The translations under genes and the position numbers were made by a program. Below, piece after piece: positions 1 through 26,883 of a stretch of 40,048 bases of DNA. Source of the stretch: Bacteroidota bacterium (GTDB lineage: Bacteria > Bacteroidota > Bacteroidia > Sphingobacteriales > Sphingobacteriaceae); the NCBI GenBank assembly GCA_013286325.1, contig JABDFZ010000005.1, positions 21,143-61,190 of the forward strand. Reading direction: 5' to 3'. Positions within the stretch are counted from its first letter, which is position 1. Each line of letters opens with the position of its first letter. The notes beneath the pieces were generated by a model. That model saw nothing but the letters and a program-made list of their open reading frames with translations. It did no database searches and had not been told where the DNA came from.

Positions 1-149
1 CAGGTTATGACAATTCGAACAAAGTATTTGACGGGCACTCGAACAAAACCAATACCATGCAGCTGCCGGGCACCTACTTCTATCAATTGGAATACAAGGA
101 TAATGGAGAAACAAAATATAAAACAGGTTATATTGTAATGAAGTACTAA
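1..149 (+). CDS. C-terminal end of a T9SS type B cargo protein (partial)
   Basis: Only the last 48 codons and the stop are inside the window; the start lies to the left. The readable peptide begins GYDNSNKVFDGHSNKTN and ends YKTGYIVMKY. This is the end of a gliding-motility-associated C-terminal (CHU_C, type B sorting) domain, which in Bacteroidota directs secretion through the outer-membrane type IX system. The same peptide, encoded by identical DNA, ends the next gene, so the two are tandem paralogues or share a recombined 3' end. No PorP/SprF gene follows this copy; the next gene starts 93 bp later. The function of the missing N-terminal part cannot be judged. Confidence 0.85.
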   Translation, partial: GYDNSNKVFDGHSNKTNTMQLPGTYFYQLEYKDNGETKYKTGYIVMKY

Positions 150-150
150 A
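1..150 (+). repeat. Direct repeat copy 1 (sorting-domain 3' end)
   Basis: Bases 1-150 match 5644-5793 with no difference that I can find. The match includes the stop codon and one further A, and diverges at the next base (G at 151, T at 5794). The left limit is unknown because the window starts inside the repeat. Confidence 0.95.
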
Positions 151-242
151 GGAATAATAAGAATAAAAATGTAATAGTTTAAATAAAATTATTCTTACCT
201 TTAATTCCCCTTATAATCAATCATTTACCTAATCCTGATTTT

Positions 243-3200
243 ATGAGAAATTCATCACAATTTCCACGCAATTTATTTGCGCCGACTGACTTTATCTGCA
301 GATTATGCCTTTTGGCTTTAATAGGGTTATTTTGTTTTAGCAACAATCTGTCGGCTAATGTTAAGCCAGTAACTGCTAACAAAAACAGGCATTTTAATAA
401 TATTAACGGTAAAACACACACTGCTGCGAAGCCGAACAGGCGCGGAACGTTTTCACCGCCCACAATAAGTTATAGTACACCGCAAATTTATTCTACAGGT
501 ACAGTAATTACCCCCCTCTTGCCATCAAGTAGTGGGGTGGCGGCCCCCGGCTATAACGGGGTGGCAAGTTTATCGGCAAGCCTCAACGAGCCTAATGGAG
601 TAGCAGTAGATGCTGCCGGTAATGTTTATGTAGCTGATTATGGTAATAACCTGGTGAAAAAAATACCTGTGGGTGGAGGTGCCCCGGTAAATATCGGCTC
701 TGGTTTTAACCATCCTACAGGTTTAGCTGTCGATGTTGCAGGCAATGTATATGTATCCGAAGCAGATAATAACCTGGTAAAAAAGTTACCTTTTGGAAGC
801 AGTACCCCGGTAAGTATAGGCTCCAGTTTAGGGTTTAATCAACCTGTTGGTTTAGCAGTTGATGCTGCTCGTAACTTATATATAGCGGATTATGGTAACA
901 ATGACGTAAAAGAACTGCCAGTTAGTGGCAGTCCGCTAACCCTATATCACGGTTTTTTTAGTCACCCGCAGGGCGTAGCAGTTGATGCAGCTGGGAATGT
1001 GTTTGTGGCTGATCATGATGATAATGCGATTAAGGAGATCCCATTGGCAGGAGGTGGCCCTATAACCGTAATTTCGGGCATCAACAATCCAGTAGCCGTA
1101 GCATTGGATGCTTCAGGCAATATATATACCATTAGCGATAACGTATTGGTAAAAAAATTTCCCCCTGGGGGGGGAACAGGTGTTACCTTATCCAGTTCCC
1201 TTCTTCCTGTTGCTTTAGCGGTTGATGGTGCGGGTGTTGTATATGTAACTGACGGAGGCAATAACGTAGTTGCCAGAATTGCCCCAGTTGGCGGGTATTA
1301 TATAAGCCCTGCCTTACCTGCCGGGCTAAGTATTGATAATACTACCGGCGCAATAAGTGGTACGCCAATAGCAGCAAGCCCGGCTACTAATTATACCATA
1401 ACTGCTTACAATAGCGATGGCGCAAGCCAGGCAACTTTAAATATCGAGATTAATCTTTTACCACCAGCCATTAGCTACAGTAGTCCGCAAACCTACAAGA
1501 CTTTCACAACAATTGCCCCATTAACGCCAACAAGCAGCAATGTTGCAGCATGGGGTTATAGCAGCAGCACAATTACAGTGGGTACTGGCTTCAGCAAGCC
1601 AACCGGTGTGGCAGTAGATGCTGCCGGTAATATTTATGTAGCCGATGAGGTAACCAATTTGGTTAAAAAAATTCCATCCGGAGGCGGCAGTCCGGTTATA
1701 TATGCGTCAGGGTTTAATCAGCCAGAGGGATTAGCGCTTGATGCTGCTGGGAATTTATACGTATGTGATAAGAGCAACAACGCAGTAAAAAAAATACCTG
1801 CCGGTGGCGGCAGCCCGGTAACTATAGGTTCGGGATTTAACCAGCCTACAGGGGTGGCAGTTGATCTTGCAGGTAATATTTATGTAATTAATTCGGGAAA
1901 CAAGATATTAAATGAAATCCTTGCAGTTGACGGGAGTATTATTACTGTACCAGCCGGAGTCCTAAATCCAATGAGTGTGGCTGTGGATAATAATGGTAAT
2001 ACGTATGCAACCGAGAATCAACCCCAGTTACAGGGGGTGGTGGCTTACAACTCCATCACAAAAACCTATACAACCCTGGCCCACAATTTAATTACCCCTA
2101 TTAACGGCTTAACAATTGACGGAAATGGTAATTTATATGTGAGCGATCCGGGGATTAATATGGTCTATAAAATTGCAGGTATTTCACAAACAAACCAAAA
2201 CCAATCTATGGCTATTGGGTCTGACTTTAATGCCCCGGCAGGTATTGCAGTTGATGCTGAAGGCAATGTTTACGTAGCAGATGCAGGCACTGGTTCGATA
2301 AAAAAAATAGTACCAACAGGCGGCTACTATATAACCCCTGCTTTGCCTTCAGGCCTTAGTATTGATAATACATCTGGCGTTATCAGTGGTACGCCAACAG
2401 CGCCAAACCCGGCAACAAATTATACCATTACCGCTTATAACGACGCTGGTAACGCCCAGGCTACTGTAAATATAAAAGTTAATGTACTCCCTAAGCCTAC
2501 CCTCAGTTATAGTACACCTCAAACTTATAGCAGGTCCACTCCAATTACACCGCTTATACCAACAAGTACAGATGTAGCCAGGACACCCGGAAATTATACC
2601 TATTATAATTTATTTAGTCTTGCCCGGCCGGGTCCCTATGTCACAAATGGTGTCGCCCTGGATACTGCGGGTACTTTATATATGACCGGCCCACTGGGTA
2701 CTATACAAAAATTTAATCCCGGAGATTCGGGACCGACAATAATAGCAACCGGGTTCAATCAGCCTGCCGCGTTGGCGGTTGATGTGGCCGGCAATATTTA
2801 TGTAGCCGACCGTGGCAATGGCGCAATAAAGAAGATACCTGCAGGTGGAGGCCCTACGGTAACAGTGCATACGGGATTTCCATCCCCGGTAGGTGTAGCA
2901 GTTGATGCAGCAGGCAATATTTATGTAGCTGATGATGAAGATAATGTAATAGTAAAAATCCCGGCAGACGGAGGAAACTGGGTTAGATTAGGCTCTGGCT
3001 TTTTGCGCCCAAGCTCTGTAGCGGTTGATGCTGCAGGGAATATATATGTTGCTGAGCCCGGCAGTTATAAGATAAAGATGATCCCGGCTGCAGGCGGTGA
3101 CCCGGTTGTAATATCGACGCAATATGTGAACAACATAACATTGGATACTTATGGGAACATATATGCCTCTTTGTATGATAGTGAAAATATAATCAGTTTC

Positions 3201-5792
3201 CCCCCTGGTGGTGGTGCCCCGGTAACTTTAGATGGCAAAAACGAAGGTGGTGGTGCTCCATGTCAAATGGCGGTTGACAAGTCAGGTAATATATATTTCA
3301 ATAATGGTATTGCAGCCCAGTCTCCTGGAATTGCAGAGTTAAAAATACCTACAGGGGGGTATGCCATAAATCGTCCCTTACCAACCGGCCTTAATTTTGA
3401 TACCTCAACCGGCGTTATCAGTGGTGCGCCAACAATAGCAAGCCCGGCAACAGATTATGTTATCAGCGGCTATAATCGGGTTGGTGTTGCTACAGCCGTT
3501 TTAAACATTACGGTCGATAGTCTGGCGGCCCCGGTTATCAGTTACAGCAGCCCTAAAATCTATAGCAGCGGTACAGCCATTGCTTCCCTTACACCAACAA
3601 GCAACGGGGTATCTCCGCATGGTTATAACAATAATCCCGTTATTTTAGGGAACTATCCCGGAGGTAATGGGCGGGCAATAGCTGTAGATGCTGCAGGCAA
3701 TATGTATATCACCAATCCAGGTAATTTAAATCATGTGCAAAAAATCCCAGCAGGCGGTGGTGCTCCGGTTAGTATCAGCGCCGGATATAGTGCTAATATT
3801 AGTGGTATTGCAGTAGATGCTACAGGAAATGTATATATCGCTGACCGGGCAGCTACGGTAATAAAAAAAGTCTCAGCTGGCGGTGGCAGCACTATCTCTT
3901 TAGGTTCGGGCTTTGTTAACCCTTCAGGCGTAGCGGTAGATGCTGCCGGAAATTTATACATAGCCGATATGGGTAATAATGCTGTAAAGATGATCCCCGT
4001 TGGTGGTGGTGCACCTGTTGCTTTAGGTTCGGGCTTCAACGCGCCGACAGGTGTAGCTGTTGATGGAAGCGGTAATGTATACGTTGCCGATAATGGAAAC
4101 AATGCAATAAAAATGATCCCTTCTGGTGGAGGTAGTACTGTTACAATAAGTACAGCTTTTAGTGCCCCGCTTGCAATAGCTATTGATGGGGCGGGGAATA
4201 TATTTGTAGCTAACAGTAACCCGTCTGAAATAAAATATATTCCTTCTGGTGGCGGGGCGCCTGTTGGCTTGTCTGTTTTTTCTACCGGTTATCTCACTGC
4301 TGGTATTACTGTAGATAATAAAGGGAATTTTTATTTTAGCAACGGCGATACTATTTATAAAATGCTGCCGGCTGGTGGTTATTATATAGGCCCGTTTTTA
4401 CCTCCGGGGTTAAAATTTGACTCGGGCACAGGCACAATTACTGGTACGCCAAAGGCAGGCAGTGCTGCAACAAATTATACTGTTACTGCTTATAGCGTAA
4501 ACAGTATAAGCGCTACCGCTACAATAAATATTGCTGTAAAATCAGCCGATGCCAGCTTAAGTTCAGTGTACGTAAGTACGGGGACGGCTTTAGTTCCATC
4601 ATCCGGAGCTGCAGCTGTAAATTATACAACTTCGGTAAGCTCATCCACTACCTCTATAACAGTAACCCCAGTTACAAAAGACCCGGCTGCTACAGTCACG
4701 GTTAATGGCGTTGCAGTTGCCAGCGGCTCGGCTTCGGCCCCGATAACATTGACCGGCAGTTCCACAACTATTAATATGCTGGTAACCGCATCCGATGGGG
4801 CTACTACACGCTCATATTCAATTATTGTAAACAAAACAGGCTCGAGCAATGCAACGATAAGCGCTTTATATTTAAGCACCGGATCCATATTAAACAAGGT
4901 AGCAGGCAGCCCGTTGAATTATACGTCATCTGTGAGTGCTTCCACTACTTCGTTAACTGTAACACCCGTAACTGCAGATGCTACGGCTACTGTTACCGTA
5001 AATGGCAACCCGGTTACAAGCGGTTCTCCTTCGGCACCGATAACGCTTAGTACTGGCCCGACTACCATAAGTGTAGTAGTAACGGCGCAGGATGGTACAA
5101 CAACCAAAACTTATTCCATCGTTGTAAGCAGGACAGGATCGAATAATGCCTCGTTAAAAGAAATTCATTTTAGGAATGGTGCACCATTTAACAGAGTAAC
5201 AGGCGACCCTTTGCGGTTCACAGCTTCAGTGCCTTCGGGCACTATTTTCACAGCATTTACTGCAATAACTACCGATCCAAATGCTACTTTATCAATTAAC
5301 GGCTCTCCAATGCTACCTGATCATGACGCTTCTGCCTTCACTATTCCTTTAAGTGCGGGCGATAATACGATCAGCGTTATTGTAACGGCACAAGATGGCT
5401 TTACTTCTAAAACTTATTTTGTAATTATTATCGTGTTACCCCCCATACCAGCTGCGGCGACGTACAGTGTAAACAAACCGGAAGTTGACCCGATATTGAA
5501 TGACCGGACGATCACAGTGCACCAGGGACTGTCGCCGAATGGGGACGGGATCAATGATGTGCTGATCATAACGAACATTGAGAAATTCCCGGAAAACAAG
5601 CTGAGCATCATGAATGCAGGCGGTACAGAAGTGTACCAGGTAGCAGGTTATGACAATTCGAACAAAGTATTTGACGGGCACTCGAACAAAACCAATACCA
5701 TGCAGCTGCCGGGCACCTACTTCTATCAATTGGAATACAAGGATAATGGAGAAACAAAATATAAAACAGGTTATATTGTAATGAAGTACTAA
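243..5792 (+). CDS. Giant NHL-propeller / Ig / cadherin-like surface protein with T9SS type B sorting domain
   Basis: An 1849-residue exported protein. A signal peptide covers about residues 1-39, with a hydrophobic core near residues 20-34. Four similar modules follow (about 70-405, 408-750, 752-1095 and 1097-1432). By my count each holds six NHL-type repeats (variants of VAVDAAGNVYVAD), so each module is probably a six-bladed propeller. Each ends in a putative Ig (He_PIG-type) domain marked by LPxGLxxDxxTGxIxGTP. Three cadherin-like beta-sandwich domains follow (about 1434, 1534 and 1633 onward). The last roughly 95 residues form a CHU_C/type B sorting domain containing LSPNGDGINDV. The expected location is the cell surface or outside the cell. 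NHL and Ig repeats suggest binding to proteins or glycans, but no catalytic motif is visible. The PorP/SprF-like gene starts 8 bp downstream, a usual pairing for type B cargo. The DNA of the last 340 bp looks more GC-rich than the repeat region. Confidence 0.9.
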   Translation: MRNSSQFPRNLFAPTDFICRLCLLALIGLFCFSNNLSANVKPVTANKNRHFNNINGKTHTAAKPNRRGTFSPPTISYSTPQIYSTGTVITPLLPSSSGVAAPGYNGVASLSASLNEPNGVAVDAAGNVYVADYGNNLVKKIPVGGGAPVNIGSGFNHPTGLAVDVAGNVYVSEADNNLVKKLPFGSSTPVSIGSSLGFNQPVGLAVDAARNLYIADYGNNDVKELPVSGSPLTLYHGFFSHPQGVAVDAAGNVFVADHDDNAIKEIPLAGGGPITVISGINNPVAVALDASGNIYTISDNVLVKKFPPGGGTGVTLSSSLLPVALAVDGAGVVYVTDGGNNVVARIAPVGGYYISPALPAGLSIDNTTGAISGTPIAASPATNYTITAYNSDGASQATLNIEINLLPPAISYSSPQTYKTFTTIAPLTPTSSNVAAWGYSSSTITVGTGFSKPTGVAVDAAGNIYVADEVTNLVKKIPSGGGSPVIYASGFNQPEGLALDAAGNLYVCDKSNNAVKKIPAGGGSPVTIGSGFNQPTGVAVDLAGNIYVINSGNKILNEILAVDGSIITVPAGVLNPMSVAVDNNGNTYATENQPQLQGVVAYNSITKTYTTLAHNLITPINGLTIDGNGNLYVSDPGINMVYKIAGISQTNQNQSMAIGSDFNAPAGIAVDAEGNVYVADAGTGSIKKIVPTGGYYITPALPSGLSIDNTSGVISGTPTAPNPATNYTITAYNDAGNAQATVNIKVNVLPKPTLSYSTPQTYSRSTPITPLIPTSTDVARTPGNYTYYNLFSLARPGPYVTNGVALDTAGTLYMTGPLGTIQKFNPGDSGPTIIATGFNQPAALAVDVAGNIYVADRGNGAIKKIPAGGGPTVTVHTGFPSPVGVAVDAAGNIYVADDEDNVIVKIPADGGNWVRLGSGFLRPSSVAVDAAGNIYVAEPGSYKIKMIPAAGGDPVVISTQYVNNITLDTYGNIYASLYDSENIISFPPGGGAPVTLDGKNEGGGAPCQMAVDKSGNIYFNNGIAAQSPGIAELKIPTGGYAINRPLPTGLNFDTSTGVISGAPTIASPATDYVISGYNRVGVATAVLNITVDSLAAPVISYSSPKIYSSGTAIASLTPTSNGVSPHGYNNNPVILGNYPGGNGRAIAVDAAGNMYITNPGNLNHVQKIPAGGGAPVSISAGYSANISGIAVDATGNVYIADRAATVIKKVSAGGGSTISLGSGFVNPSGVAVDAAGNLYIADMGNNAVKMIPVGGGAPVALGSGFNAPTGVAVDGSGNVYVADNGNNAIKMIPSGGGSTVTISTAFSAPLAIAIDGAGNIFVANSNPSEIKYIPSGGGAPVGLSVFSTGYLTAGITVDNKGNFYFSNGDTIYKMLPAGGYYIGPFLPPGLKFDSGTGTITGTPKAGSAATNYTVTAYSVNSISATATINIAVKSADASLSSVYVSTGTALVPSSGAAAVNYTTSVSSSTTSITVTPVTKDPAATVTVNGVAVASGSASAPITLTGSSTTINMLVTASDGATTRSYSIIVNKTGSSNATISALYLSTGSILNKVAGSPLNYTSSVSASTTSLTVTPVTADATATVTVNGNPVTSGSPSAPITLSTGPTTISVVVTAQDGTTTKTYSIVVSRTGSNNASLKEIHFRNGAPFNRVTGDPLRFTASVPSGTIFTAFTAITTDPNATLSINGSPMLPDHDASAFTIPLSAGDNTISVIVTAQDGFTSKTYFVIIIVLPPIPAAATYSVNKPEVDPILNDRTITVHQGLSPNGDGINDVLIITNIEKFPENKLSIMNAGGTEVYQVAGYDNSNKVFDGHSNKTNTMQLPGTYFYQLEYKDNGETKYKTGYIVMKY

Positions 5793-5793
5793 A
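5644..5793 (+). repeat. Direct repeat copy 2 (sorting-domain 3' end)
   Basis: This is the second copy of the 150-bp perfect repeat at 1-150. It encodes the last 48 residues of the large NHL protein plus its stop codon. Perfect identity at third codon positions points to recent duplication or gene conversion rather than selection on protein sequence. Confidence 0.95.
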
Positions 5794-5800
5794 TTTACGT

Positions 5801-6703
5801 ATGACTAAAAGAGGAATATTATTCATCCTGGTATTAATTTTTATAGGTAAAGCCCAGGCGCAGACATCAGCCTTCAGCTATACCCAATATGCAGACAACC
5901 TGACCCCGCTTAATCCGGCCTACTCACTGCTGGACAAAGCGGGTTCGCTCAATACAATGGCCCGCAAACAATTTGTGGGGATCAACGGTGCACCGACCAG
6001 CTTGCTGATCAACGCCAATTTCCCGATTGCCTCGATCAACGGGTCGGCAGGGTTGATCGTGCTGAATGACCAGATAGCAGTAGAACGGCAGACAGAAGTA
6101 AATGCCTATTTTGCAAAAGCGATCCAGCTGGGGGAGAATGACTACCTGGCGGTATCGTTAAATGCAGGGCTGAAGAACTATGTAGCCAACTATTCCTCAC
6201 TGGCTGACTCGGACCCGGAGTTTGCCAATGATATCAGGCAGACCAAACCCAATATTGGCTTTGGGGTGATGTACTTTACCGACTGGTATTACATCGGGGT
6301 ATCGGTACCGGAACTGACGATCACCAGTTTGGGCACAGCCTCGGTACAGAACAATACCAATTTTGTAAACCATTACTACTTTGCAGGAGCCTTGCTGACG
6401 GATGTGAGTGAAGACATCAAGTTCAAACCCTCGGTACTACTGTCGTATGCAAAGGGCACCCCGGTACGGACGGACCTGACAGGCACGTTTTATATGAAAG
6501 AAGTACTGGGCCTGGGCTTGGGTTACCATGTAAGCAGCCAGCTGGCAGGAATCCTGACGGTGAATGTAGACCAGTTCCATATCGGGTACAGCTACCAGTT
6601 TGGCACCTCATCGAATAACCTGGGCGGTTTCAATACGGCGACACATGAAGTTACGCTTGGCTACAGATTCGGCAGCGGTGCAGGCAAGGCAAAACTGTTA
6701 TAA
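5801..6703 (+). CDS. PorP/SprF family type IX secretion-associated outer-membrane protein
   Basis: A 300-residue protein with a signal peptide (about 1-20, ending GKAQAQ). The conserved N-terminal segment SFSYTQYADNLTPLNPAYS-like of the PorP/SprF family follows (here AFSYTQYADNLTPLNPAY). Alternating beta-strand pattern and an ending rich in strand residues (VTLGYRFGS) fit an outer-membrane barrel. Family members sit beside T9SS type B cargo genes and are thought to help anchor or translocate that cargo. Here the start codon lies 8 bp after the stop of the large NHL protein, so they are very likely co-transcribed. A strong intrinsic terminator follows at about 6735-6776. Base composition resembles the sorting-domain end of the cargo gene more than its repeat region. 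Which paralogue it serves, this cargo or also the upstream one, cannot be told. Confidence 0.9.
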   Translation: MTKRGILFILVLIFIGKAQAQTSAFSYTQYADNLTPLNPAYSLLDKAGSLNTMARKQFVGINGAPTSLLINANFPIASINGSAGLIVLNDQIAVERQTEVNAYFAKAIQLGENDYLAVSLNAGLKNYVANYSSLADSDPEFANDIRQTKPNIGFGVMYFTDWYYIGVSVPELTITSLGTASVQNNTNFVNHYYFAGALLTDVSEDIKFKPSVLLSYAKGTPVRTDLTGTFYMKEVLGLGLGYHVSSQLAGILTVNVDQFHIGYSYQFGTSSNNLGGFNTATHEVTLGYRFGSGAGKAKLL

Positions 6704-15317: not shown

Positions 15318-17366
15318 ATGATAAACAGATACAAGATCATATTGCTTTCAATAACATTTGTTTGCTTTATTTCCGCCTGTACAAAAGAAGGCCTGCAAGG
15401 GCCTGAAGGTCAGCCCGGAACAACAGGCCCACAAGGGGCACAGGGAGTTGCCGGGCCAGTAGGGCCATCCGGGAAAGACGGTTCAGTTATTTACAGCGGT
15501 ACTGGTGTACCTCCTGCAACAACAGGAAGTGTGGGTGATTATTACCTTGATCGTTCTACTGGTAGCCTCTACGGCCCTAAAACTTCAACAGGTTGGGGTA
15601 CGGCACTGTCACTTACTGGCCAGCAAGGGCAGACAGGTGCAACCGGCGCTACTGGCGCAACCGGTCCACAAGGACCAACAGGCGCTACCGGCTCACAAGG
15701 AGCTACTGGTGCCACAGGGCCACAAGGGCCAACTGGACCTAAGGGTTCAACCGGTGCAACAGGTGCTACCGGAGCCACTGGGGCGACAGGCGCAACAGGC
15801 CCCCAAGGAGCAACCGGTCCAACCGGAGCTACAGGACCACAGGGGCCAGCGGGTTCTCAAGGTGCTACCGGAGCAAACGGTGCACAAGGGGCTGCCGGAG
15901 CAGCGGGCAGTCAGATATACAGTTCAACAGGCGCACCTAATGCAGCCTTTGGTAATATTGGTGATTATTATCTCGACAAAACAAGCTTACAATTATACGG
16001 ACCGAAATCAGCCTCGGGATGGGGAGTGCCAGTGTTACTGCGCGGTGCACAAGGCCCTCAGGGTCCTGTTGGGCCAGCAGGAGCTGATGGAAGTATTATT
16101 TATAGTGGATTAGGTGCACCCGATCCAACCCTTGGAACAAATGGTGATTATTACTTTAACAAGAGCGCAGGTACGCTTTATGGCCCTAAAACATCCTCAG
16201 GCTGGGGTACATCAACTTCATTAGTCGGTCCGACAGGTGCAACGGGTGCTACAGGTGCAACTGGTCTGCAAGGATCTACCGGGGCAACAGGATCTACTGG
16301 TGCCAATGGAACTAATGGCACAAACGGCAGTAAAATAATTAGCGGTACAACTGCACCAACAACAGCATTGGGTACTAATGGTGATTATTATTTGAATAAA
16401 GCCACCTATGATTTTTACGGTCCAAAAACCGCATCGGGCTGGGGAATACCTATTACACTAATGGGAGCACAGGGAACAGCCGGGCCAACTGGGCCGGCTG
16501 GTGCTGATGGTAGCGTTATTTATAGCGGTGCCGGTGCTCCGGTTGCTACTATAGGTAACATTGGCGATTACTACTTTGCCACAACAGCTGTTTTGTTCTA
16601 TGGCCCTAAAACATCTTCAGGCTGGGGTACCGGAACTTCATTAAAAGGCACCAACGGAACAAATGGAACCAATGGCAGCAACGGCGCAAATGGGGCAAAC
16701 GGAAGTAATGGCACCAACGGGTCATCCGTACTAAGCGGTACAGGTGTTCCGGCAAGTACGGTTGGCAATAATGGGGATTTCTATATAGATCTTTCGACTT
16801 ATAAAATTTACGGACCAAAAGCCAGCGGTGCATGGGGCGCCGGGACATCATTAAAAGGGCCTGCGGGAGCAAATGGCAATGCCAATGTGCTTGCTTTTGA
16901 AACTGCCGACGGGAGTACCTTCTCATGGAACTTTGGGGCTTTTGATAATTCAGGTGGCGACAACCTTGATTACCTTGAAATGAACCGTAATGGGCTAAAT
17001 GATACTACAACTTTTTTCAATATCCCCGCATCAGCAGTTGCAGCAGCTAAAACCGGTACAATAGCAGTTTTTTTACGCGATACAGGAACAACTACATGGC
17101 AGCCAGTACCTTTTAGTACCGGCAACGGCGCTAATGTGCTGAACTATAACTTTAAATTAACAACAACTGCCACTACCGCCTATGTACGGATTTCCCTCAC
17201 TTATAATCAAAATATTAGTTTCATAGCTACTGATAAAGTGAGGATAGTAATTATCCCTGTGAGTAGTACAGGTGTGCTGGCTGTGGCTCCGCGCGGGCCT
17301 GCAGCTATGCAGCAAACCATGCGGAAACTCAACTTAAAAGACACCGATTTTAAAAAGCTGAAATAA
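15318..17366 (+). CDS. Collagen-like repeat lipoprotein
   Basis: A 682-residue lipoprotein. The signal peptide ends in a lipobox-like FISAC, with the lipidated Cys at residue 21. Collagen-type Gly-X-Y tracts ([10 protein letters not shown] and similar; later Asn-rich GTNGTNGSN) alternate with six copies of a roughly 47-residue module. The module pattern is GSxIYSGxGAP...GDYYxD...YGPKxxxGWG, starting near residues 55, 197, 258, 337, 398 and 468. A beta-rich C-terminal domain (about 515-682) lacks Gly-X-Y. Bacterial collagen-like proteins form triple helices and often serve as stalks or adhesins. The protein is probably anchored to the outer membrane and may extend outward as a trimer. It is the first gene of a run of four envelope genes. 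A 202-codon overlapping frame is a by-product of the repeat and not a gene. Confidence 0.88.
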
Positions 17367-17368
17367 GG

Positions 17369-17390
17369 GTGCGCCGCTTAGCGGCGGCAC
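17369..17390 (+). other. Stable hairpin between operon genes
   Basis: GTGCG-CCGC pairs with GCGG-C-GCAC around a TTA loop with one bulged G. It starts 2 bp after the collagen-gene stop. No T-run follows, so it is more likely an mRNA-stabilising or attenuating element than a full terminator. Confidence 0.45.
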
Positions 17391-17424
17391 ATCCTTATAA
17401 TCTTACCTCACCTGGCCAAAAAAC

Positions 17425-19101
17425 ATGAAACGGATAATTATAGGGTGCTTTCTTCTCCTTAACTTATTGCTCTTGCATAGGGTTGTACGTGCACAGGATG
17501 TTGGACAATTAGCCAATCAAAAACCCTTTGATATTTCGGGAGTTTTTGGGGTTGGCATTGGTACTTATAATTCCAACGGTATTGAACCCGGGGAGCATAA
17601 TTTTTCTTATTTATTTAATGGCGCCCCGGTTGTATCCATTTATGGTGTAAGTTTTCCGTTCAGCATAGTAGTGAGTGATCAGCAGCGTGGTTTCAGGCAG
17701 CCATTTAATCAATATGGCATCAGTCCTACTTATAAATGGATCACGGTTCATGCTGGCTGGCAAAGTGTACAGTTTTCGCAGTTTACACTGGCTGGATATG
17801 ATATTTTAGGTGGCGGTGTTGAGCTTAATCCGGGTAAACTCAGGTTCGGGTTTATTTATGGGCGATTTAATAAGGCCATTGAAGAAACCTCAACTCAACC
17901 ATTATCTTTTCAAACCCCAGCTTATAAAAGAACGGGTTATAGTGCAAAACTTGGTTACGGCACCTCAAATAATCATGTTGATTTGGTGATGCTGAATGCC
18001 AGGGATGACGAACACTCGTTAAAAACCCCACCGTCTGATCTTGCACCTGCCGAAAACCTGGTGATAGGCTTGGTATCGAAATTTACTTTTTTAAAGCATT
18101 TTGTTTGGGATGTTGATGTAGCAGGGAGTATTTATACCCGTAATAAACTGGATGATACGATTGCCAACCTGGAACTGAACAAGTTTGATTTTATCAAAAA
18201 AATGATAACGCTGAATAGTTCTACCCAATTGCTCACAGCCGGGCAAACCAGTTTGGGGTATCAGCAAAAAAACTATACTATCGGCTTGCAATACCGGAGG
18301 GTTGACCCGGATTATAAGTCGATGGGCGCCTATTACTTCGAAACGGATGTTGCCAATTATACCATACAGGGAGCAGTAAGGCTATTAACAAATCAATTAC
18401 AGCTTACAGGCAGCCTTGGTTTTCAGAATGATAATTTAAGGCATGATAAGGCTTATACTTCACACCGTGACATCAGTTCGTTAGGCGTCTCTTTTAATAA
18501 GGCCAAATATGGTATTGATATAAGGTACTCAAATTACGGAATTACGCAGGACAGGGGGCTTAATCCCATAATAGATACTTTCCGTGTAGCGCGTACCAAC
18601 TATAACGTAAATGCTTTATTAAGATACAGCATGGGCGATAGTTTAATAACGCACAGTTTTGTATTGGTTGGCAACGTACAATCGTTGGTCGATCTGAACC
18701 ATTTTACATCAGGACAAAACGGGAGCAACAGCAAAACCGGGAACTTATCGTATCAGCTTGGATTTACAAAATCGGCATTAACACTCAGTACAAACTTTAA
18801 TTATACCGTAGCTGATATTGCCATGCTGCATACCATACTTTACGGGCCATCGCTCGGGATAAATAAACAATTGTCGCAGGGTAAAATGGGACTTAGTGCA
18901 TCTGTAAGCTACCAGTTGCAGGATAATAATCATATAAACGCAGGCAATATTTTTAACGGCACGCTAAACGGCTCGTACCGTTTTTCAAAACGCGATGGCG
19001 CAAATGTTACACTATCATACCTGAAAAGTAATTCGAAGGATGTTACGCTGCCGTCATTCAACGAAATCAGGTCATCATTCAATCTAACACATTCCTTTTA
19101 A
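17425..19101 (+). CDS. Predicted outer-membrane beta-barrel protein
   Basis: A 558-residue protein with a clear signal peptide (about 1-23, ending RVVRAQ). The remainder shows repeated alternating hydrophobic/polar strands with aromatic girdle residues (YKWITVHAGWQSVQF, TIGLQYRRVDPDY, FNLTHSF). It ends in Phe, the typical C-terminal signature for outer-membrane insertion. I do not recognise a named family. It lies 58 bp after the collagen-like lipoprotein gene and 4 bp before the giant secreted protein gene. By position it may be the outer-membrane partner (transporter, anchor or receptor) of these large surface proteins; this is inference. Confidence 0.75.
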   Translation: MKRIIIGCFLLLNLLLLHRVVRAQDVGQLANQKPFDISGVFGVGIGTYNSNGIEPGEHNFSYLFNGAPVVSIYGVSFPFSIVVSDQQRGFRQPFNQYGISPTYKWITVHAGWQSVQFSQFTLAGYDILGGGVELNPGKLRFGFIYGRFNKAIEETSTQPLSFQTPAYKRTGYSAKLGYGTSNNHVDLVMLNARDDEHSLKTPPSDLAPAENLVIGLVSKFTFLKHFVWDVDVAGSIYTRNKLDDTIANLELNKFDFIKKMITLNSSTQLLTAGQTSLGYQQKNYTIGLQYRRVDPDYKSMGAYYFETDVANYTIQGAVRLLTNQLQLTGSLGFQNDNLRHDKAYTSHRDISSLGVSFNKAKYGIDIRYSNYGITQDRGLNPIIDTFRVARTNYNVNALLRYSMGDSLITHSFVLVGNVQSLVDLNHFTSGQNGSNSKTGNLSYQLGFTKSALTLSTNFNYTVADIAMLHTILYGPSLGINKQLSQGKMGLSASVSYQLQDNNHINAGNIFNGTLNGSYRFSKRDGANVTLSYLKSNSKDVTLPSFNEIRSSFNLTHSF

Positions 19102-19105
19102 GGCC

Positions 19106-22100
19106 ATGCTATATAACCAGGATATTATGAAAAGGCAAATGGAACAGGGTAAAAAATTAAAAATGGGGGTTGCAATTTTGCTGATAACCATTGTAATAAC
19201 GCTGGCTAATTTAGGGGCGATGGCGCAAAGCGTAAATATTACTGTTAATATCATTCCGCCATATTCTCCTTACTATTCAGATTATTCAGGCAAAAACGCT
19301 AATAAAGTGTTCTTGATCCTTCAAAATCTGACCAATGCCCAACTTAAAATAAAACTTGCCGGAAACCTGGACGGTAATAACGGGATCCATATTTCTACCT
19401 ATTCCAACTATGTGCCATTGCAACCTATTGTATTAAATGCACACGAAACCAGGCAATTAAGCGGTACTGCTTTGAAGGATATATTCGACCTCAATGCATT
19501 AAGCGTCAGTGGGGTCGATAAGGGTAAACTGGCGCTTACTTCACAATTGCCTGAAGGTAATTATAGTTTCTGTATCCAGGCGCTGGATTATGGCACCAGG
19601 CGTTTACTGTCAGCAACTGCCCCATTAGGTTGTACAAGCATTGATATTGTATATCCTGAGGCTCCTGTTTTGATCAATCCGCAGCCATTCGCCCAGGTAC
19701 CGGTAATTACGCCTCAGATGATAACTTTTAACTGGTTAAACCCAGGCATTGTACCATTGGGCACACAGTACAAAATTGAAATGGCTGAAATGCCTGATGT
19801 TCCTGCCGATCCGAATCAAATATTAAACGCAACATCGCTACCCATGCTTTCACAAACGGTTACTGGCTTTAGCTACTTGTATAACATTGCCAACCTGGGT
19901 TTAACCCCCGGAAAAAAATATGCATGGCGGGTTACCTCTTTTGATCCATCGGGAAGAGTACTGTTTCATAATAAAGGCGTAAGTGCAGCAGCAATATTTG
20001 TATATGGGCAGAGTAACCAAAGCCCGTTGTTTGCAACTAACACACCAAGCCAAGATAATCCGTTAAGTATAATTACTCCTGATTGCAGCACAGGAACAGG
20101 TAAAGTTATTATAGGCCCGCACAGCAACCTTAGCTTAAATTGGTTATGGAAGGAACAGATTGACAGTATGACCATGTTTGGCTTGCTGGATACCAATATT
20201 TTAAAACATTATACCAGACACAGAACCGCAGCTGGTAGTGAACCTATTGCTGCTTATAAAATAGAGATAGTAAGAGTAGGGAATAAAAAGAATAACCTGC
20301 GAGGATCGGGAGTAAGTTCATATTCCTTACAGGTGAAAGCTCCTTTGCAAAATGTTTCATTAAGTGAGGCTGATGTGATAAAGGCTGGCCTTGCGCCCGG
20401 GCAAAGTTATAAGCTTGTAGTGGCAGCAGTTAATAACTTTGGTAAAATAATCAGCAAGACCGAATCATGCACCTGGCTGCTTGAAAATGAAAAAAACTCG
20501 CAGATACCAAAACTGAATATCAGCGGCCATTTGATGTATTCGTTTGATAAATCGCTTCTTCATAATGCAAATAATGCCAATATCTCCCTTCAAATTGTTA
20601 ATGAGCCCAAACCAAAAATACTGGGCATAAAATCGGGGAATAAAACTTATCCAATGGTGCAGTTTGACCCAACAAAAGATATTGCTTCGGTCACTACGGA
20701 TAGCCATGGAAATTTTACAGCGCAAATAAATCAGGCGCCCACAGATACCGGAAAAAAATATATTTTACTGCGTATTAACAGCGCTTATTATCAATTGCCT
20801 GCTGACAATATCAACGTAACTATACCCAAGTTAACAGCGGCCAACAATGGTGCGGCTTCGGGGTTAAGTTATACGCAGGATACCTTAAGACTGGGCGATA
20901 TAAAAACACAGGTGTATAATTATACGCTTACAGTTACCATGCAAAAAGGCTTTAGCGGCGGTATAACCAAACAGCAATGGAAAGATGATTTCAACCTCGA
21001 CCCAAATTCATACAACGGAAGTAGCCTGGTTGATACCGTTTCGATAGATTCGAAATCGGTTGTCGAAGCAGGTTTACCTGTAAGCCTTTATAGAAAAGTG
21101 AAGGCAGCCGATATACCTTTTTATGAGGGTGATATAACGGAAAACTCAACAGTAGCACAAGGGAAATCTTTAAAAGGAGCGGAGACACCATCGCACGGAT
21201 CTACTTATATTAAAGTAGCCGACGGGGTTACAGGCGTTATTACGGATGCCAATAAACAGCCGCAAACGGTTGTGGTATTTAATAACCTGGTTTGCAATTT
21301 CGGTATCGATGATGAATATTTTATAAAAGCTACCTTATCTGCAACAGATACTTTAGGGAGCAGCACAAGCGATGTAGCAGCACCTGAACAACAGTTTTCT
21401 TATTCGCCAGCTAATTTTAACTGGCAAACCACACACTATAATGCATCGGTAGTATACAGGCTTATTTCAAAAAAGCCGCCAACCTCGCATGTTAAAGGCA
21501 AGTTATTGTACCAATGGCCAAGCGCTCCGGGTGTATTGCATCCTTACGCAAACCGGCATATTACTGTAAAAATGCATGCCACACTTAATGCCGATGATTA
21601 TAGCAATGTTGGTTTTCCGACAACCAATTGCCAGTTCTATCCGGAAGCTCTTTATGAAGTAGTTAAGCTTCCTGATGGTAGTACCTATAACCGCTCCTTA
21701 CCTAATTATAAGGATGGGACAATAGTTGCAACCGGGACTACCGACGCTAATGGAAATTTCGATATTGAAATTTTAGCGCTCACAGAAATGGGGCAGATTA
21801 ATATAGTCGGGAAAAAACTGAGCAATACACCACAAGGCCCCACCTGTAGTGAGAAGCAAGCTACTTTTCAGAGGGGTAACTCGCAAATGATTAAAGACAA
21901 AGCTAAAACCGGAGATGCAGGCATAGTTACGGGTAACCTTGAACAGGAGTTTGAAAATTCTTTTGGCGACCCAAATCAGAAGATGGAAGGAAACGGTGAA
22001 AACGGCAGTTATGGAGACGGAATATTTTTCGGCAGTGGCGGCGGATCGATGGGCTTTAGCAGTAAAAATGGTAAACAGGGAGGTGATTTTGGAATTAATT

Positions 22101-25100
22101 TTCTAACAGGGAATGGTTCATCTCAATTTTCTGTTCAAAATGCAAACGGCGGATTAACTTACCAGGTAGCTAATAATGATACCTATGTAAATACATTACT
22201 AAACAGCCTTTTCGGGGCTAATTTGGGACCTGGCCCTGGTGGTTTAAATAATGCAGGCGACCAATTGAAAAATGCCGCACAGGATCAGAGCAAAGGTTTA
22301 GGCCCGAATGCAGATGATGATCAAGTTGTTGAAGACCAGAATACCGGAGTGATGGGCAGATATTTCTCGCTCGAAGGATTGCCTACCCTGGTAAAAACAA
22401 ACAATAGCCAGGCAAATACTCCCGATAATTTTGTGGTACAGCCTTTTCAAACTGTCGATCTCGGCACGCTGCTCACTAATGTTGACGAGATTAAGGGCTC
22501 GATTAATGTTTATGTGCTAAATGGGGATTATTCAGCACTGAATGGTGCAAAAGTGGTGGTTTTCAGAACTGTTGCAGCTAAAGCTGCCGATCCAAAATTT
22601 GATGGTGAGGGGTCTGTAAATCATCCAATCAAACCATTGCTTAGTCCGAATTTTGGCAGCAGCGCCACCTACACCAAAAGTGTAGCGAAACAAGGCAGTG
22701 ACTATGGAATGATTGTTAAAGAAGGTTATCAGCAAGAAAGCTATCAGTATACTGATCCGGTAGAGTGGGTGATTGATGTGCCATTATCAATAAGCAAGGG
22801 CTCAAGACCTGACCAGGGTGTTATTGATCTGAGCAATTTACGCCTTGCATCCAATGGGGCATATTCATTACAAATTACACCAAATGCAGAAAATTCCGGA
22901 GGCTCATTTCAACCACTCATGGTATCGTTACCTATAGAAAACAGTATAGATTATTCGTATGATGGCTATATGCCGGACGAGGCATTTATCAGCAACAACA
23001 TATACGGCACACAGGTTATAGGAACGCAAAACAAAACCTCGCAATTACCATATCAGGATGATAACGGTATTTATGTAAGCGTGGCGCCAAGCCGCATAGC
23101 AGGCAGGGTAATGGATAAGTCGAGCAGCAGGGGGCTTAAAAACGCACAGGTTACCCTGGAGATTTATACCGGAACTAGCAGCACAACCCCATCACAGACC
23201 AAAACAATGAGCACTGTTGATACCAGCGGGTATTTTGAGGTTAATCAAAACCAGTTCCCGGGTTTTAATTGGAAGGATAATGATCATGTGCGCATTACCG
23301 CATCCGCCTATGGTTACCAGAATTCCGCTCCTCCTCCAATAAAAGGAACTATAAATTTAAATAGTCTGCCCATATTAACGGCTAATGGCAGTAAGGTTTA
23401 CCAGGAAATATTGCTAAACCCTGCGGCCACCATAACAGGTACTATTGTTAACGAAAGCAGCCAGGTAGTAGACTCGTATATTATGCGGGACGACTCTACG
23501 CTTTATAGCAACAACGACCTTAAAAAAGGGATTCCGGTTACATCAAATACAGCACATGTTATTAAAATCTTTCCTAAAGATGTTGGTTATTTTGATACAA
23601 CCTTAAACGTAACTACAGGCGTAGGGACAACTGCTTTGAACCAGGTTATGCTTTACCGCCGCAAACACCGTATGGAGTTTCATATTGCAAGTAATGGGAT
23701 CGCCGCTTTTCAACTCAATACTTTAAAAGTTATTATAAATAATGAGGCAGCAAAAAGTGCATGGGTTGGAGCAGACGGAGTAGCCAAAATTGATTTTGAA
23801 AACATTTCGGTAAATAATTATACCGTTCAGGTGGCAGATGTTACCAATGGCGGATATGTACCTAAAATATTCAACTTAAAAAATGAGGAAAGCCGACAGC
23901 CAATCATCTATAATGTTATCATAGAAAAAGGTGCGACAGTTACAGGGATAGTAACTATGGATAACAAGCCAGTAGGTAATGCTAAGGTTTACATTGACTT
24001 TAGTACAGGCACAGCATCGGCATACCAAAACCGGGATAAAAATAGCGACCCTGTACCACTGTTTGAAACGCGTAGCAAAGCAAATGGCAGTTATACGCTC
24101 ACTGGTATTCCGGTAAGTGATGGTAACAGCGTAAAGATACATGCTACGCTCGATACAGCATTTACAGTTAATGGTGCAGAAGGTACTATTGCGATACAGA
24201 ATAAAAAAGGAACAGGTGATTTAGTACTTACCCGCTTTGATGGCCCCAATATAACCAGTGTATGGGGTTACCCGCTTTCGGTGGAGAAAATGGAAAGGGT
24301 TGATAACTTTACTGTTAAGGTAACAGGGATTATTGATCTTGGGAAAAATAACTCATCGTTTACCTGGTTAAACCCCGATAATAAGATCAGGATAAATAAA
24401 GTGGTTTTTACAGGCAGCCAGCAATACAATGCTTATAAAGCCGAGCCTAAAATTGCTATAGTACCATTGGATGGTGTAACATCCATCAAAATGAAATTTT
24501 TGGATAAATACAATGTAGTTCTGCAAGGTGGGCAATCCTCTGATGATGTAGAGCCGCTGGCATTGGAGAAAGATGGAAGTGGGGGTGCAGTATTTGCAAG
24601 GGTAAGCATTACCGACAACTCTTTTAACTTTCCGTCGTCATACCTCAGTTTTGACAAGACCGGGCCGTTTTATCTTTCAGAACTACAACCTGGGTCCAAT
24701 GGACAACACGCTACAATGATAAAAGCATTGTACAATACAGGCTCCTCAAATAATGCAACTCAACAAACAAGATCTGGCGGAAATCAGTCGGCAATAGCTG
24801 GGGCTAAAGCTAATACACCATTATACAATTTATCCGATGCGGCAGGCAATGCTTTGCAATTCAGCTTTATTGGCTTTAATACTGTAGCAAATCCCATATC
24901 TTCATTTGTTGACGTTTCGGGTAAGTTCCATTTGGATGCGACCTTAAGTGGAAAAGTACCAAACAGCACCCCGGGCGATATAGACATCCACATAAAAGAT
25001 TTGGTGCTTGATGGCGATTCCATTCGTACCAGTAAAGGTGTTGATGCTATTACGGTTAACCTGCAAACCTGGAAACTATTGGTAAACAACTGGGTGGTCG

Positions 25101-26878
25101 ATCCTAAACTTGGAGGCATTTACTCTACAAATAGCGTTATTAAAACAGGTGTTTTAGATATCCCGGTAAAAACATTCAACCTTCGCAGCGATTTGTTTGT
25201 GGTTAAGGATTTTGATTTAAGTAATGTATCGTTAGGCGGGGGGCTGGTAAATTTAACCGGGATTGATAACACGAATGCCCACCTGGTTTTTGATGAAGCC
25301 TGTGGCAGCGATCATGGTAAACATTGGCGCTTTTCGTCGAGCGCAGTACCAGGTGGCGCCGCAGCGCACATTCCGTTACCTGCTGTTGGTGGCATAACCC
25401 CTGCAAAAACACTCGATGTTGATTATTTTCAATTGGTAAGCTTTAATAACGAGAATATCATCAGCCTTTCGGGGGCATCGGATGGGATGAAGTTATATAA
25501 TAACAACAGGTTCACCTTTTACCCTTCATCAATAACAAGTGATATCAACTCATTTACGCTTGGCGGGCAGGCAGCTTTTGATGTACCCCGACTTACCAAT
25601 ACAGCCTTCAATCTTACTTACACCAAAAGCAATGGGAACTTTACAGTTACGCCGGGCGCATTTAAGTTGAATTTTGAGGGAAAAGGATATGTTCAATACT
25701 CAAACGATCAAACCAAGAGTATAACTTATGATAATAACACCAGTTTTATAAGCGGCTCGGTTGTTGAACCGAATAAAATTAATTCAATCCCATGTGTTCT
25801 TTCATTCGGTAATAATGATCCCGGGACTATTACATTAAATCAGGGGTATAACATTAACCTCGATGGCCCCGGAGAAGCTACACCGCAAAACTTAACCATA
25901 ACGGTTGATAATAAGCTGCCCAATTATGCTAACGGAATGCATGTTGAAGCAGCAACCAACGATTGGAGTACACTCAAATTCGCCGGGTTAATGAACGATC
26001 CAAAATCGGGCACTATGGTTGTGCAAAAGCCAACCTATAATTTTGAAGTATTGGGCGATGTAACTGCAAGTTCATCAGGTGTATCTATGGATCAGGTGAA
26101 TACACCTCTTGGAGATGTGGCAATGACCTACGATTTCCCAAGCAAAACACTACATGGTAGCCTCCACATGAACCAGGTTGATTTTGGCGGTAAAAAATTC
26201 TCCGGCGATGTGCAACTAACGTTTAGCCCGCATGGCATGCTATTACTTGGGGCAGGCTCTTTAAACACCGGTACTTTATTGGTAGATGGCTTTGGCACAT
26301 TTAATATCGGTCTGCTTTTTGGCAACACAAGTTTAACACAGGACAATATAAACACCGTTACCCAATACAGTATTGCAGGCCAAACCAAATGCTGGCTGAG
26401 CGATAACAGCCAAAACTTTAAAGGCTTTTTTTTAGATGGGGGTTATGATATAATAAGCGAGCACGATGGCTTTGATATTGGCATTGCTTCGGTATATTTT
26501 AACGCTACTTTGGGCGTGGAAGCATCGATAGGGGCAAACTTTAATACCAAAAATTTTATGGCCCTGGTTGGAGCACATGGTGATGTTGATGCCGGGCTTA
26601 GCGCCATAACAGGTACTTCAATATCAGGAGGGGTAAAGGCACACTTAACGGCAGAGGCCACTTACAGTAAACAAGGCTTTGGAATAAACGGCGACGCCGG
26701 GGTTATGGTAAACTTCCAGGTGTGCCAGTATATACCGGTTTATGGCACAAAGTGCCTTAGTGCCAGTAAGGGGGCCAGTGTTAAGTTTGGAACCGGCGGC
26801 GGCAAAAAAACATACTTTACTTTTAGTTTAGGTAAGGACGATGGTACAGTACAGTGTTCAAATAATGTGAATAAGTAA
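19106..26878 (+). CDS. Giant 2590-residue secreted multidomain protein
   Basis: The largest gene in the window. A signal peptide covers about residues 20-41 (VAILLITIVITLANLGAMAQ). The stop of the barrel gene lies 4 bp upstream of this start; ATG at 19127 is an alternative. The N-terminal beta domain (about 42-185, VNIIPPYSPYYSDYSG) resembles, from memory, a Bacteroidota domain called TANFOR. A fibronectin-III-like segment follows (about 186-300). Several carboxypeptidase-regulatory-like folds carry G(x)VxDxxxxxGLKNAQVTL-type patterns, including ones near 1330, 1450 and 1600. A Gly/Asn-rich linker lies near 955-1015. The last about 350 residues are beta-rich with paired Cys (CQYIPVYGTKC). I see no type A or type B T9SS sorting domain at the end, so the route out of the cell is unclear. 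No catalytic motif is visible. A structural surface or adhesin role with the neighbouring genes is inferred. Confidence 0.85.
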   Translation: MLYNQDIMKRQMEQGKKLKMGVAILLITIVITLANLGAMAQSVNITVNIIPPYSPYYSDYSGKNANKVFLILQNLTNAQLKIKLAGNLDGNNGIHISTYSNYVPLQPIVLNAHETRQLSGTALKDIFDLNALSVSGVDKGKLALTSQLPEGNYSFCIQALDYGTRRLLSATAPLGCTSIDIVYPEAPVLINPQPFAQVPVITPQMITFNWLNPGIVPLGTQYKIEMAEMPDVPADPNQILNATSLPMLSQTVTGFSYLYNIANLGLTPGKKYAWRVTSFDPSGRVLFHNKGVSAAAIFVYGQSNQSPLFATNTPSQDNPLSIITPDCSTGTGKVIIGPHSNLSLNWLWKEQIDSMTMFGLLDTNILKHYTRHRTAAGSEPIAAYKIEIVRVGNKKNNLRGSGVSSYSLQVKAPLQNVSLSEADVIKAGLAPGQSYKLVVAAVNNFGKIISKTESCTWLLENEKNSQIPKLNISGHLMYSFDKSLLHNANNANISLQIVNEPKPKILGIKSGNKTYPMVQFDPTKDIASVTTDSHGNFTAQINQAPTDTGKKYILLRINSAYYQLPADNINVTIPKLTAANNGAASGLSYTQDTLRLGDIKTQVYNYTLTVTMQKGFSGGITKQQWKDDFNLDPNSYNGSSLVDTVSIDSKSVVEAGLPVSLYRKVKAADIPFYEGDITENSTVAQGKSLKGAETPSHGSTYIKVADGVTGVITDANKQPQTVVVFNNLVCNFGIDDEYFIKATLSATDTLGSSTSDVAAPEQQFSYSPANFNWQTTHYNASVVYRLISKKPPTSHVKGKLLYQWPSAPGVLHPYANRHITVKMHATLNADDYSNVGFPTTNCQFYPEALYEVVKLPDGSTYNRSLPNYKDGTIVATGTTDANGNFDIEILALTEMGQINIVGKKLSNTPQGPTCSEKQATFQRGNSQMIKDKAKTGDAGIVTGNLEQEFENSFGDPNQKMEGNGENGSYGDGIFFGSGGGSMGFSSKNGKQGGDFGINFLTGNGSSQFSVQNANGGLTYQVANNDTYVNTLLNSLFGANLGPGPGGLNNAGDQLKNAAQDQSKGLGPNADDDQVVEDQNTGVMGRYFSLEGLPTLVKTNNSQANTPDNFVVQPFQTVDLGTLLTNVDEIKGSINVYVLNGDYSALNGAKVVVFRTVAAKAADPKFDGEGSVNHPIKPLLSPNFGSSATYTKSVAKQGSDYGMIVKEGYQQESYQYTDPVEWVIDVPLSISKGSRPDQGVIDLSNLRLASNGAYSLQITPNAENSGGSFQPLMVSLPIENSIDYSYDGYMPDEAFISNNIYGTQVIGTQNKTSQLPYQDDNGIYVSVAPSRIAGRVMDKSSSRGLKNAQVTLEIYTGTSSTTPSQTKTMSTVDTSGYFEVNQNQFPGFNWKDNDHVRITASAYGYQNSAPPPIKGTINLNSLPILTANGSKVYQEILLNPAATITGTIVNESSQVVDSYIMRDDSTLYSNNDLKKGIPVTSNTAHVIKIFPKDVGYFDTTLNVTTGVGTTALNQVMLYRRKHRMEFHIASNGIAAFQLNTLKVIINNEAAKSAWVGADGVAKIDFENISVNNYTVQVADVTNGGYVPKIFNLKNEESRQPIIYNVIIEKGATVTGIVTMDNKPVGNAKVYIDFSTGTASAYQNRDKNSDPVPLFETRSKANGSYTLTGIPVSDGNSVKIHATLDTAFTVNGAEGTIAIQNKKGTGDLVLTRFDGPNITSVWGYPLSVEKMERVDNFTVKVTGIIDLGKNNSSFTWLNPDNKIRINKVVFTGSQQYNAYKAEPKIAIVPLDGVTSIKMKFLDKYNVVLQGGQSSDDVEPLALEKDGSGGAVFARVSITDNSFNFPSSYLSFDKTGPFYLSELQPGSNGQHATMIKALYNTGSSNNATQQTRSGGNQSAIAGAKANTPLYNLSDAAGNALQFSFIGFNTVANPISSFVDVSGKFHLDATLSGKVPNSTPGDIDIHIKDLVLDGDSIRTSKGVDAITVNLQTWKLLVNNWVVDPKLGGIYSTNSVIKTGVLDIPVKTFNLRSDLFVVKDFDLSNVSLGGGLVNLTGIDNTNAHLVFDEACGSDHGKHWRFSSSAVPGGAAAHIPLPAVGGITPAKTLDVDYFQLVSFNNENIISLSGASDGMKLYNNNRFTFYPSSITSDINSFTLGGQAAFDVPRLTNTAFNLTYTKSNGNFTVTPGAFKLNFEGKGYVQYSNDQTKSITYDNNTSFISGSVVEPNKINSIPCVLSFGNNDPGTITLNQGYNINLDGPGEATPQNLTITVDNKLPNYANGMHVEAATNDWSTLKFAGLMNDPKSGTMVVQKPTYNFEVLGDVTASSSGVSMDQVNTPLGDVAMTYDFPSKTLHGSLHMNQVDFGGKKFSGDVQLTFSPHGMLLLGAGSLNTGTLLVDGFGTFNIGLLFGNTSLTQDNINTVTQYSIAGQTKCWLSDNSQNFKGFFLDGGYDIISEHDGFDIGIASVYFNATLGVEASIGANFNTKNFMALVGAHGDVDAGLSAITGTSISGGVKAHLTAEATYSKQGFGINGDAGVMVNFQVCQYIPVYGTKCLSASKGASVKFGTGGGKKTYFTFSLGKDDGTVQCSNNVNK

Positions 26879-26883
26879 TAGTT

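Follow-up and report, generated by a model that had tools for sequence, protein, structure and literature searches.

Two tandem T9SS cargo genes with locally and recently homogenised 3′ ends in a Sphingobacteriaceae genome

Two neighbouring cargo genes, which encode giant surface proteins of a Mucilaginibacter-like member of the Bacteroidota, end in the same letters, and the locus raises the question of whether such identity reflects exchange between the genes, their common descent, constraint on the encoded domain or the manner in which the genome was assembled. The window, that is the whole stretch of DNA analysed (40,048 nt), corresponds to C5:21143-61190 of the source genome (GCA_013286325.1; 3.5 Mb, 218 contigs, 61% complete). 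Positions 1-150 and 5644-5793 of its forward strand are identical base for base and diverge at the very next base. The repeat consists of the end of a type B sorting domain, the TAA stop codon and one further base. An exact match of this length is far beyond chance expectation, and no other repeats of at least 30 bases are found within the window. The exact identity described in the sequence-only reading, including the stop codon, the extra base and the immediate divergence, is confirmed.

The second copy of the repeat closes gene B (243-5792, forward strand; 1849 aa), which encodes NHL repeats, putative Ig and cadherin-like domains and a C-terminal type B sorting domain (CHU_C, PF13585; 70.0 bits against a cut-off of 27, residues 1758-1846 of 1849). 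The first copy closes gene A, the upstream cargo gene, which starts at C5:14086 outside the window and contributes only its 3′ end (1-149, forward strand) to it. Gene A is 2336 aa long once the contig overlap described below is collapsed (the gap-spanning open frame is 2401 aa, counting overlap and Ns), and PF13585 is matched in its left part at 62.2 bits. A and B are thus arranged in tandem on the same strand with similar domain types. The 93 bases between them (150-242) are unlike the sequence after B, where a gene for a PorP/SprF-family outer-membrane protein (5801-6703, forward strand) begins 8 bases past the stop codon. This protein, presumed to be the shuttle for B and perhaps for A, exceeds the cut-offs of both PF11751 (179.9 bits) and TIGR03519 (184.5 bits); its named close relatives are from Mucilaginibacter (69-71% identity). 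Gene A has no adjacent shuttle gene, the next gene after it being B. The assignment of A and B as putative T9SS type B cargo is supported by the C-terminal sorting domain and by the PorP/SprF gene directly downstream of B, and the cargo and shuttle identities proposed earlier hold for PF13585, PF11751 and TIGR03519, while TIGR04131 in B's tail scores 31.2, under its cut-off of 35. Farther along the window, a same-strand run (15318-28905) contains a 2590-aa open frame (19106-26878) with no Pfam match and only a sub-cut-off TANFOR match. The run also includes two frames of 558 and 673 aa that likewise match nothing in Pfam, and a collagen-repeat protein.

The left edge of the repeat requires separate treatment. 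Window base 1 (C5:21143) is the first base past a 100-N scaffold gap (C5:21043-21142), and the window's portion of gene A therefore stands at the start of the right-hand contig. The final 95 bases of the contig to the left of the gap equal window positions 1-95 base for base, both contig ends overlapping inside the A/B repeat, and when the left contig is read across the gap the first A/B mismatch immediately precedes the first base of the repeat (1-150). One contig opening at the exact point from which two copies are identical, opposite another that breaks off shortly inside that repeat, is the layout to be expected from a k-mer assembler. Given the gap, the overlap and the position of the mismatch, the left edge is an assembly edge and no biological boundary, and the exact figure of 150 bases is set by a single-base difference and by the assembler breaking there. 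No other N-runs occur in the approximately 0.46 Mb of the source genome examined, and further N gaps, sought as a test for a constant contig overlap, were absent from 375,579 bases.

Counted back from the stop codon, A and B mismatch at offsets 150, 202, 256 and 309 and at many positions from 334 on. The near-identity therefore extends over 333 nt with 4 mismatches, two of them synonymous (5460-5792 in gene B), and covers a linker, the sorting domain and the stop codon. The view of the 150-bp repeat as a bounded module is accordingly upheld as to its exact identity and not as to its left edge, which is a contig start inside this longer tract.

Could the assembly have produced the repeat altogether, by copying one tail to both sides of the gap or by joining strains of a mixture into a chimeric contig? 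The contig start behind the gap, the repeated contig end, the low completeness and the number of contigs would all suit such an artefact, and the order A-gap-B itself is given by the scaffolder's join together with the overlap of 95 bases. Against it, a single contig carries the tail of A together with about 6.6 kb of sequence specific to that gene, and this tail differs from that of B at 4 sites; the tail of B is likewise joined, within a single contig, to B-specific sequence and the PorP/SprF gene; and the same phenomenon is met in single-contig genomes (see below). The tails are thus two different sequences, linked to unique DNA on separate contigs, with four differences in 333 nt and then a sharp fall in identity. 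An assembly origin is very improbable, and a pure artefact is rejected by the four differences, the linked unique sequence and the single-contig genomes. The concern about assembly attached to the sequence-only reading was justified for the edge at base 1, which is an assembly break, but not for a single copy artefactually doubled, as the two tails join different unique sequence and differ from each other.

When the comparison is extended leftward, as the same reading had proposed, A does not match B along the whole gene: DNA identity reaches 97% only in the tail, and upstream it is reduced to patchy short matches of about 74-83%. Outside the C-terminal block the proteins align at about 34-47% amino acid identity and carry different numbers of NHL repeats and cadherin-like domains; beyond the shared base that follows the stop codon, agreement is down to 17 of the first 60 bases. 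Outside the tail, A and B are, as judged from these alignments, old, diverged paralogues.

A codon test, in which only residues that are the same in both proteins are counted and each is scored for the same codon or not, addresses exchange and constraint together. In the tract A and B share the codon at 103 of 106 such residues; upstream, where 289 codons were aligned, they do so at 56 of 161 (Fisher p 2.4e-28). A run of 62 identical codons was reached in none of 20000 shuffles. A tandem duplication of the whole gene followed by divergence would agree with the tandem order, the common strand and the similar domain types, but the same-codon share drops at the tract edge and the upstream DNA matches are patchy; such a duplication is rejected by the codon comparison and retains very little probability. 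Strong constraint on the sorting domain alone, which is conserved and functional by homology, might also be thought to keep two tails identical. This is the least probable of the explanations and is contradicted by the data, as the codon is retained much less often in other tail pairs of the family: 28 of 67 for B and G146_L085, 36 of 81 for G027 L075 and L072 and, in the control comparison between B and a third tail of the source genome (on contig C13), 32 of 69, which indicates that the sorting domain does not hold its codons by itself. A sharply bounded tract of excess synonymous identity is thus present inside otherwise diverged homologues, and the earlier proposal of recent duplication or gene conversion of a 3′ module is supported by the codon contrast and by the 333-nt limit. 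The homogenisation of the 3′ ends of these two tandem T9SS cargo genes is real, recent and local.

The last 333 nt of A and B have recently been made near-identical and the rest has not, and this probably came about by homologous intragenomic exchange, of which gene conversion is the simplest form. Such exchange would homogenise the two tails, would halt at the stop codon, past which there is no homology to use, and would halt upstream where the cadherin-like domains are too diverged.

The source genome contains the 150-mer exactly twice; the 95-base contig end, which overlaps the first of these copies, and the third tail, which is 73% identical, complete the set. The third tail (G000:C13:1-281, L027) belongs to a third cargo gene with an open frame of 2784 aa, which runs into the contig edge within what is presumably its stop codon. 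In a search of 149 genomes of the genus, including the source genome, the best match in the other 148 is 76% identical; movement of the tail between species is rejected, since no match exceeds this value.

Tails of relatives were fetched at 33 of 50 listed sorting-domain places in seven of 17 genomes, leaving out the weak matches G146:C1:4883721 and G037:C1:5659731, and pairs were compared within seven complete Mucilaginibacter genomes (G027, G146, G009, G023, G121, G037 and G116). Near-identical tail pairs that end at the stop codon occur in two of the seven, G027 and G146. G027 is a single contig in which 13 tails were found with B's tail as query; among their 78 pairs, four show 96.8-97.8% identity across 881-1518 nt of the 3′ end. 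The two genes of one such pair (L075/L076) both lie upstream of a PorP/SprF gene; the remaining near-identical tails are L080, L081 and L082, with L081 about 1.8 Mb away. L080 and L081 show 96.8% identity for about 1.5 kb, and farther upstream they are unrelated (27% amino acid identity in the aligned part). One of 15 pairs in G146 (L089/L090) is 92.7% identical overall, with 867 identical bases between flanks of about 70-90%. In the pairs of both genomes identity ends at most 6 bases past the last sense codon. Different upstream architectures thus occur with near-identical 3′ ends, at linked and unlinked loci. Near-identical tails were found in none of 15 pairs in G009 and not in the single pair of each of G023, G121, G037 and G116.

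The sequence-only reading had suggested that the sorting tail may serve as a recombination handle for module swaps, a reading to which the complete genomes lend no support. Their longest runs of exact identity stop short of the last sense codon by 109-336 bases, lying almost wholly before the sorting domain in L075/L076 and L089/L090 and straddling its start in the three L080-L082 pairs, so that the sorting domain is not an evident focus of exchange. A conserved tandem arrangement was sought at 20 PorP loci of relatives: two sorting-domain genes stand upstream at one of them (G027), one at 16, and none was detected at three. Tandem pairs are therefore uncommon. In a tree of 44 tails, which ten of the 17 genomes enter, if at all, only by their PorP-linked tail and in which L102 is one codon short of its stop, the tails cluster by genome; the three tails of the source genome form a clade (97/80) and 11 of the 13 G027 tails group together (87/92).

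Draft assemblies of other relatives show cargo genes at their contig breaks. In G111, one place in the tail is the end of contigs C77 and C78 and also the start of contigs C22 and C32, an unresolved repeat that is entered by two genes and left by two neighbours; C77 and C78 share the codon at 107 of 110 residues in the tail versus 140 of 218 upstream. The PorP-linked contig of G127 starts inside a cargo gene, and its first 590 bases have copies 94% and 89% identical on two other contigs. Both genomes were chosen for their contig breaks and form a biased sample. With edges counted on the low-coordinate side and contig extents known for part of the matches, a contig edge lies within 2.5 kb upstream of PorP at 11 of 57 plus-strand matches and within 2.5 kb downstream at none of 41 minus-strand matches (Fisher p 0.002, matches of one genome not being independent). 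The idea that the breaks upstream of PorP all fall in the sorting domain is rejected: of the 11, two contigs begin inside it (G111 and G103), three after it and six in earlier domains (G018 twice). In G018, contigs C9 and C13 (L105 and L106) have an exact common start of 2018 bases, with a cargo 3′ end and a PorP/SprF gene, before they diverge, which could reflect either the assembly or a long duplication. In draft assemblies of these bacteria, breaks tend to fall in genes of this kind; genes for giant surface proteins may consequently be split or missing, and the edges of repeats in them cannot safely be read as biology.

The relatives also bear on how the A/B tract arose. One gene may have been built recently by copying the end of the other onto a different head (a partial duplication), without conversion between existing tails. 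L080 and L081, alike at their ends, unrelated upstream and 1.8 Mb apart, are what such capture of a 3′ module would yield. A and B, however, are still homologous upstream of the tract (56% amino acid identity over 289 codons), as are C77/C78 of G111 (218 of 287 residues) and L089/L090 (83%), and this persistent homology suggests that both partners probably already had a tail. An identical block between less identical flanks also fits conversion better. Capture is an unlikely origin for the A/B tract, with the reservation that it and conversion cannot be fully separated, and homologous exchange remains the preferred reading.

What such exchange might mean for secretion depends on which shuttle reads which tail. 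Passages of a study of Flavobacterium johnsoniae (PMC12618676) describe type B tails and PorP/SprF shuttles as cognate pairs; identity among the tails of the 12 type B substrates is mostly 20-30%. For one tail, secretion also took place through the shuttle of another cargo whose tail is 68% identical to it, but not through those of cargos with 43% and 26% identity. Three orphan tails, which share more than 44% identity among themselves, have one common shuttle. In the source genome there are three PorP/SprF matches, one after B and the others after CHU_C matches on contigs C7 and C94. At the protein level the tails of A and C13 are 99% and 74% identical to that of B and, together with the F. 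johnsoniae results, this suggests that A, and perhaps C13, could use B's shuttle. With the same address tag on both proteins, A and B may both use the single PorP/SprF protein after B, and exchange that keeps their tails alike may be tolerated or favoured; this is a tentative proposal, somewhat less likely to be right than wrong. More doubtful is a general scheme of one shuttle and many cargos, in which intragenomic exchange would keep the tags of a diverging surface-protein family compatible with one PorP/SprF protein and new cargo heads could join the family as the tag evolved in concert. Overall, only 15 of 25 unlinked tails have the shuttle-linked tail of their own genome as the closest one, which counts against the shared-shuttle idea; the source genome, G000 (2/2), and G027 (11/12) stand at one extreme, and G146 (1/5), G009 (1/5) and G116 (0/1) speak against the general scheme. 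In its favour beside the tail counts, G027 has 26 CHU_C matches versus only four PorP/SprF matches, two of which resemble halves of one broken gene; that match (G027:C1:260602-261476) is in two overlapping pieces in different frames, one with an internal stop, adjoins a CHU_C gene and is possibly a broken shuttle. The shuttle reading is optional to the account of the locus, since the sorting domain itself is not an evident preferred site of exchange.

Nothing direct on gene conversion or concerted evolution of T9SS sorting domains was found in the open-licence literature, and the homogenisation of the A and B tails is of a kind already hinted at in two other systems. In Tannerella forsythia, several T9SS cargo genes for KLIKK proteases combine different catalytic domains with C-terminal domains that are virtually identical; the authors considered a recent common origin of the tails likely and noted that the shared motifs hampered assembly (PMC4404884). 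The likeness lies in near-identical tails on several T9SS cargo genes of one genome. In the relevant passages of that paper, however, the domain is compared with gingipain-type C-terminal domains and not with type B (CHU_C) domains, and these passages contain no codon test, conversion or PorP/SprF neighbour. For the gingipain and haemagglutinin genes of Porphyromonas gingivalis, passages of PMC5266723 describe domain exchange and name gene conversion as a mechanism. Recombination among modular T9SS surface proteins is common to both cases, but there adhesin and catalytic modules vary between strains, whereas here the common part is the 3′ end within one genome. The F. johnsoniae passages (PMC12618676) resemble the present locus in that a type B cargo gene lies directly upstream of PorP/SprF and orphan cargos with similar tails use one shuttle; they differ in that the low identity among most tails there stands against two neighbours with near-identical DNA tails here. 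The present locus offers a sequence-level case in which T9SS sorting tags appear to be homogenised by intragenomic exchange, and it ties in with the recent finding that specific shuttles read such tags.
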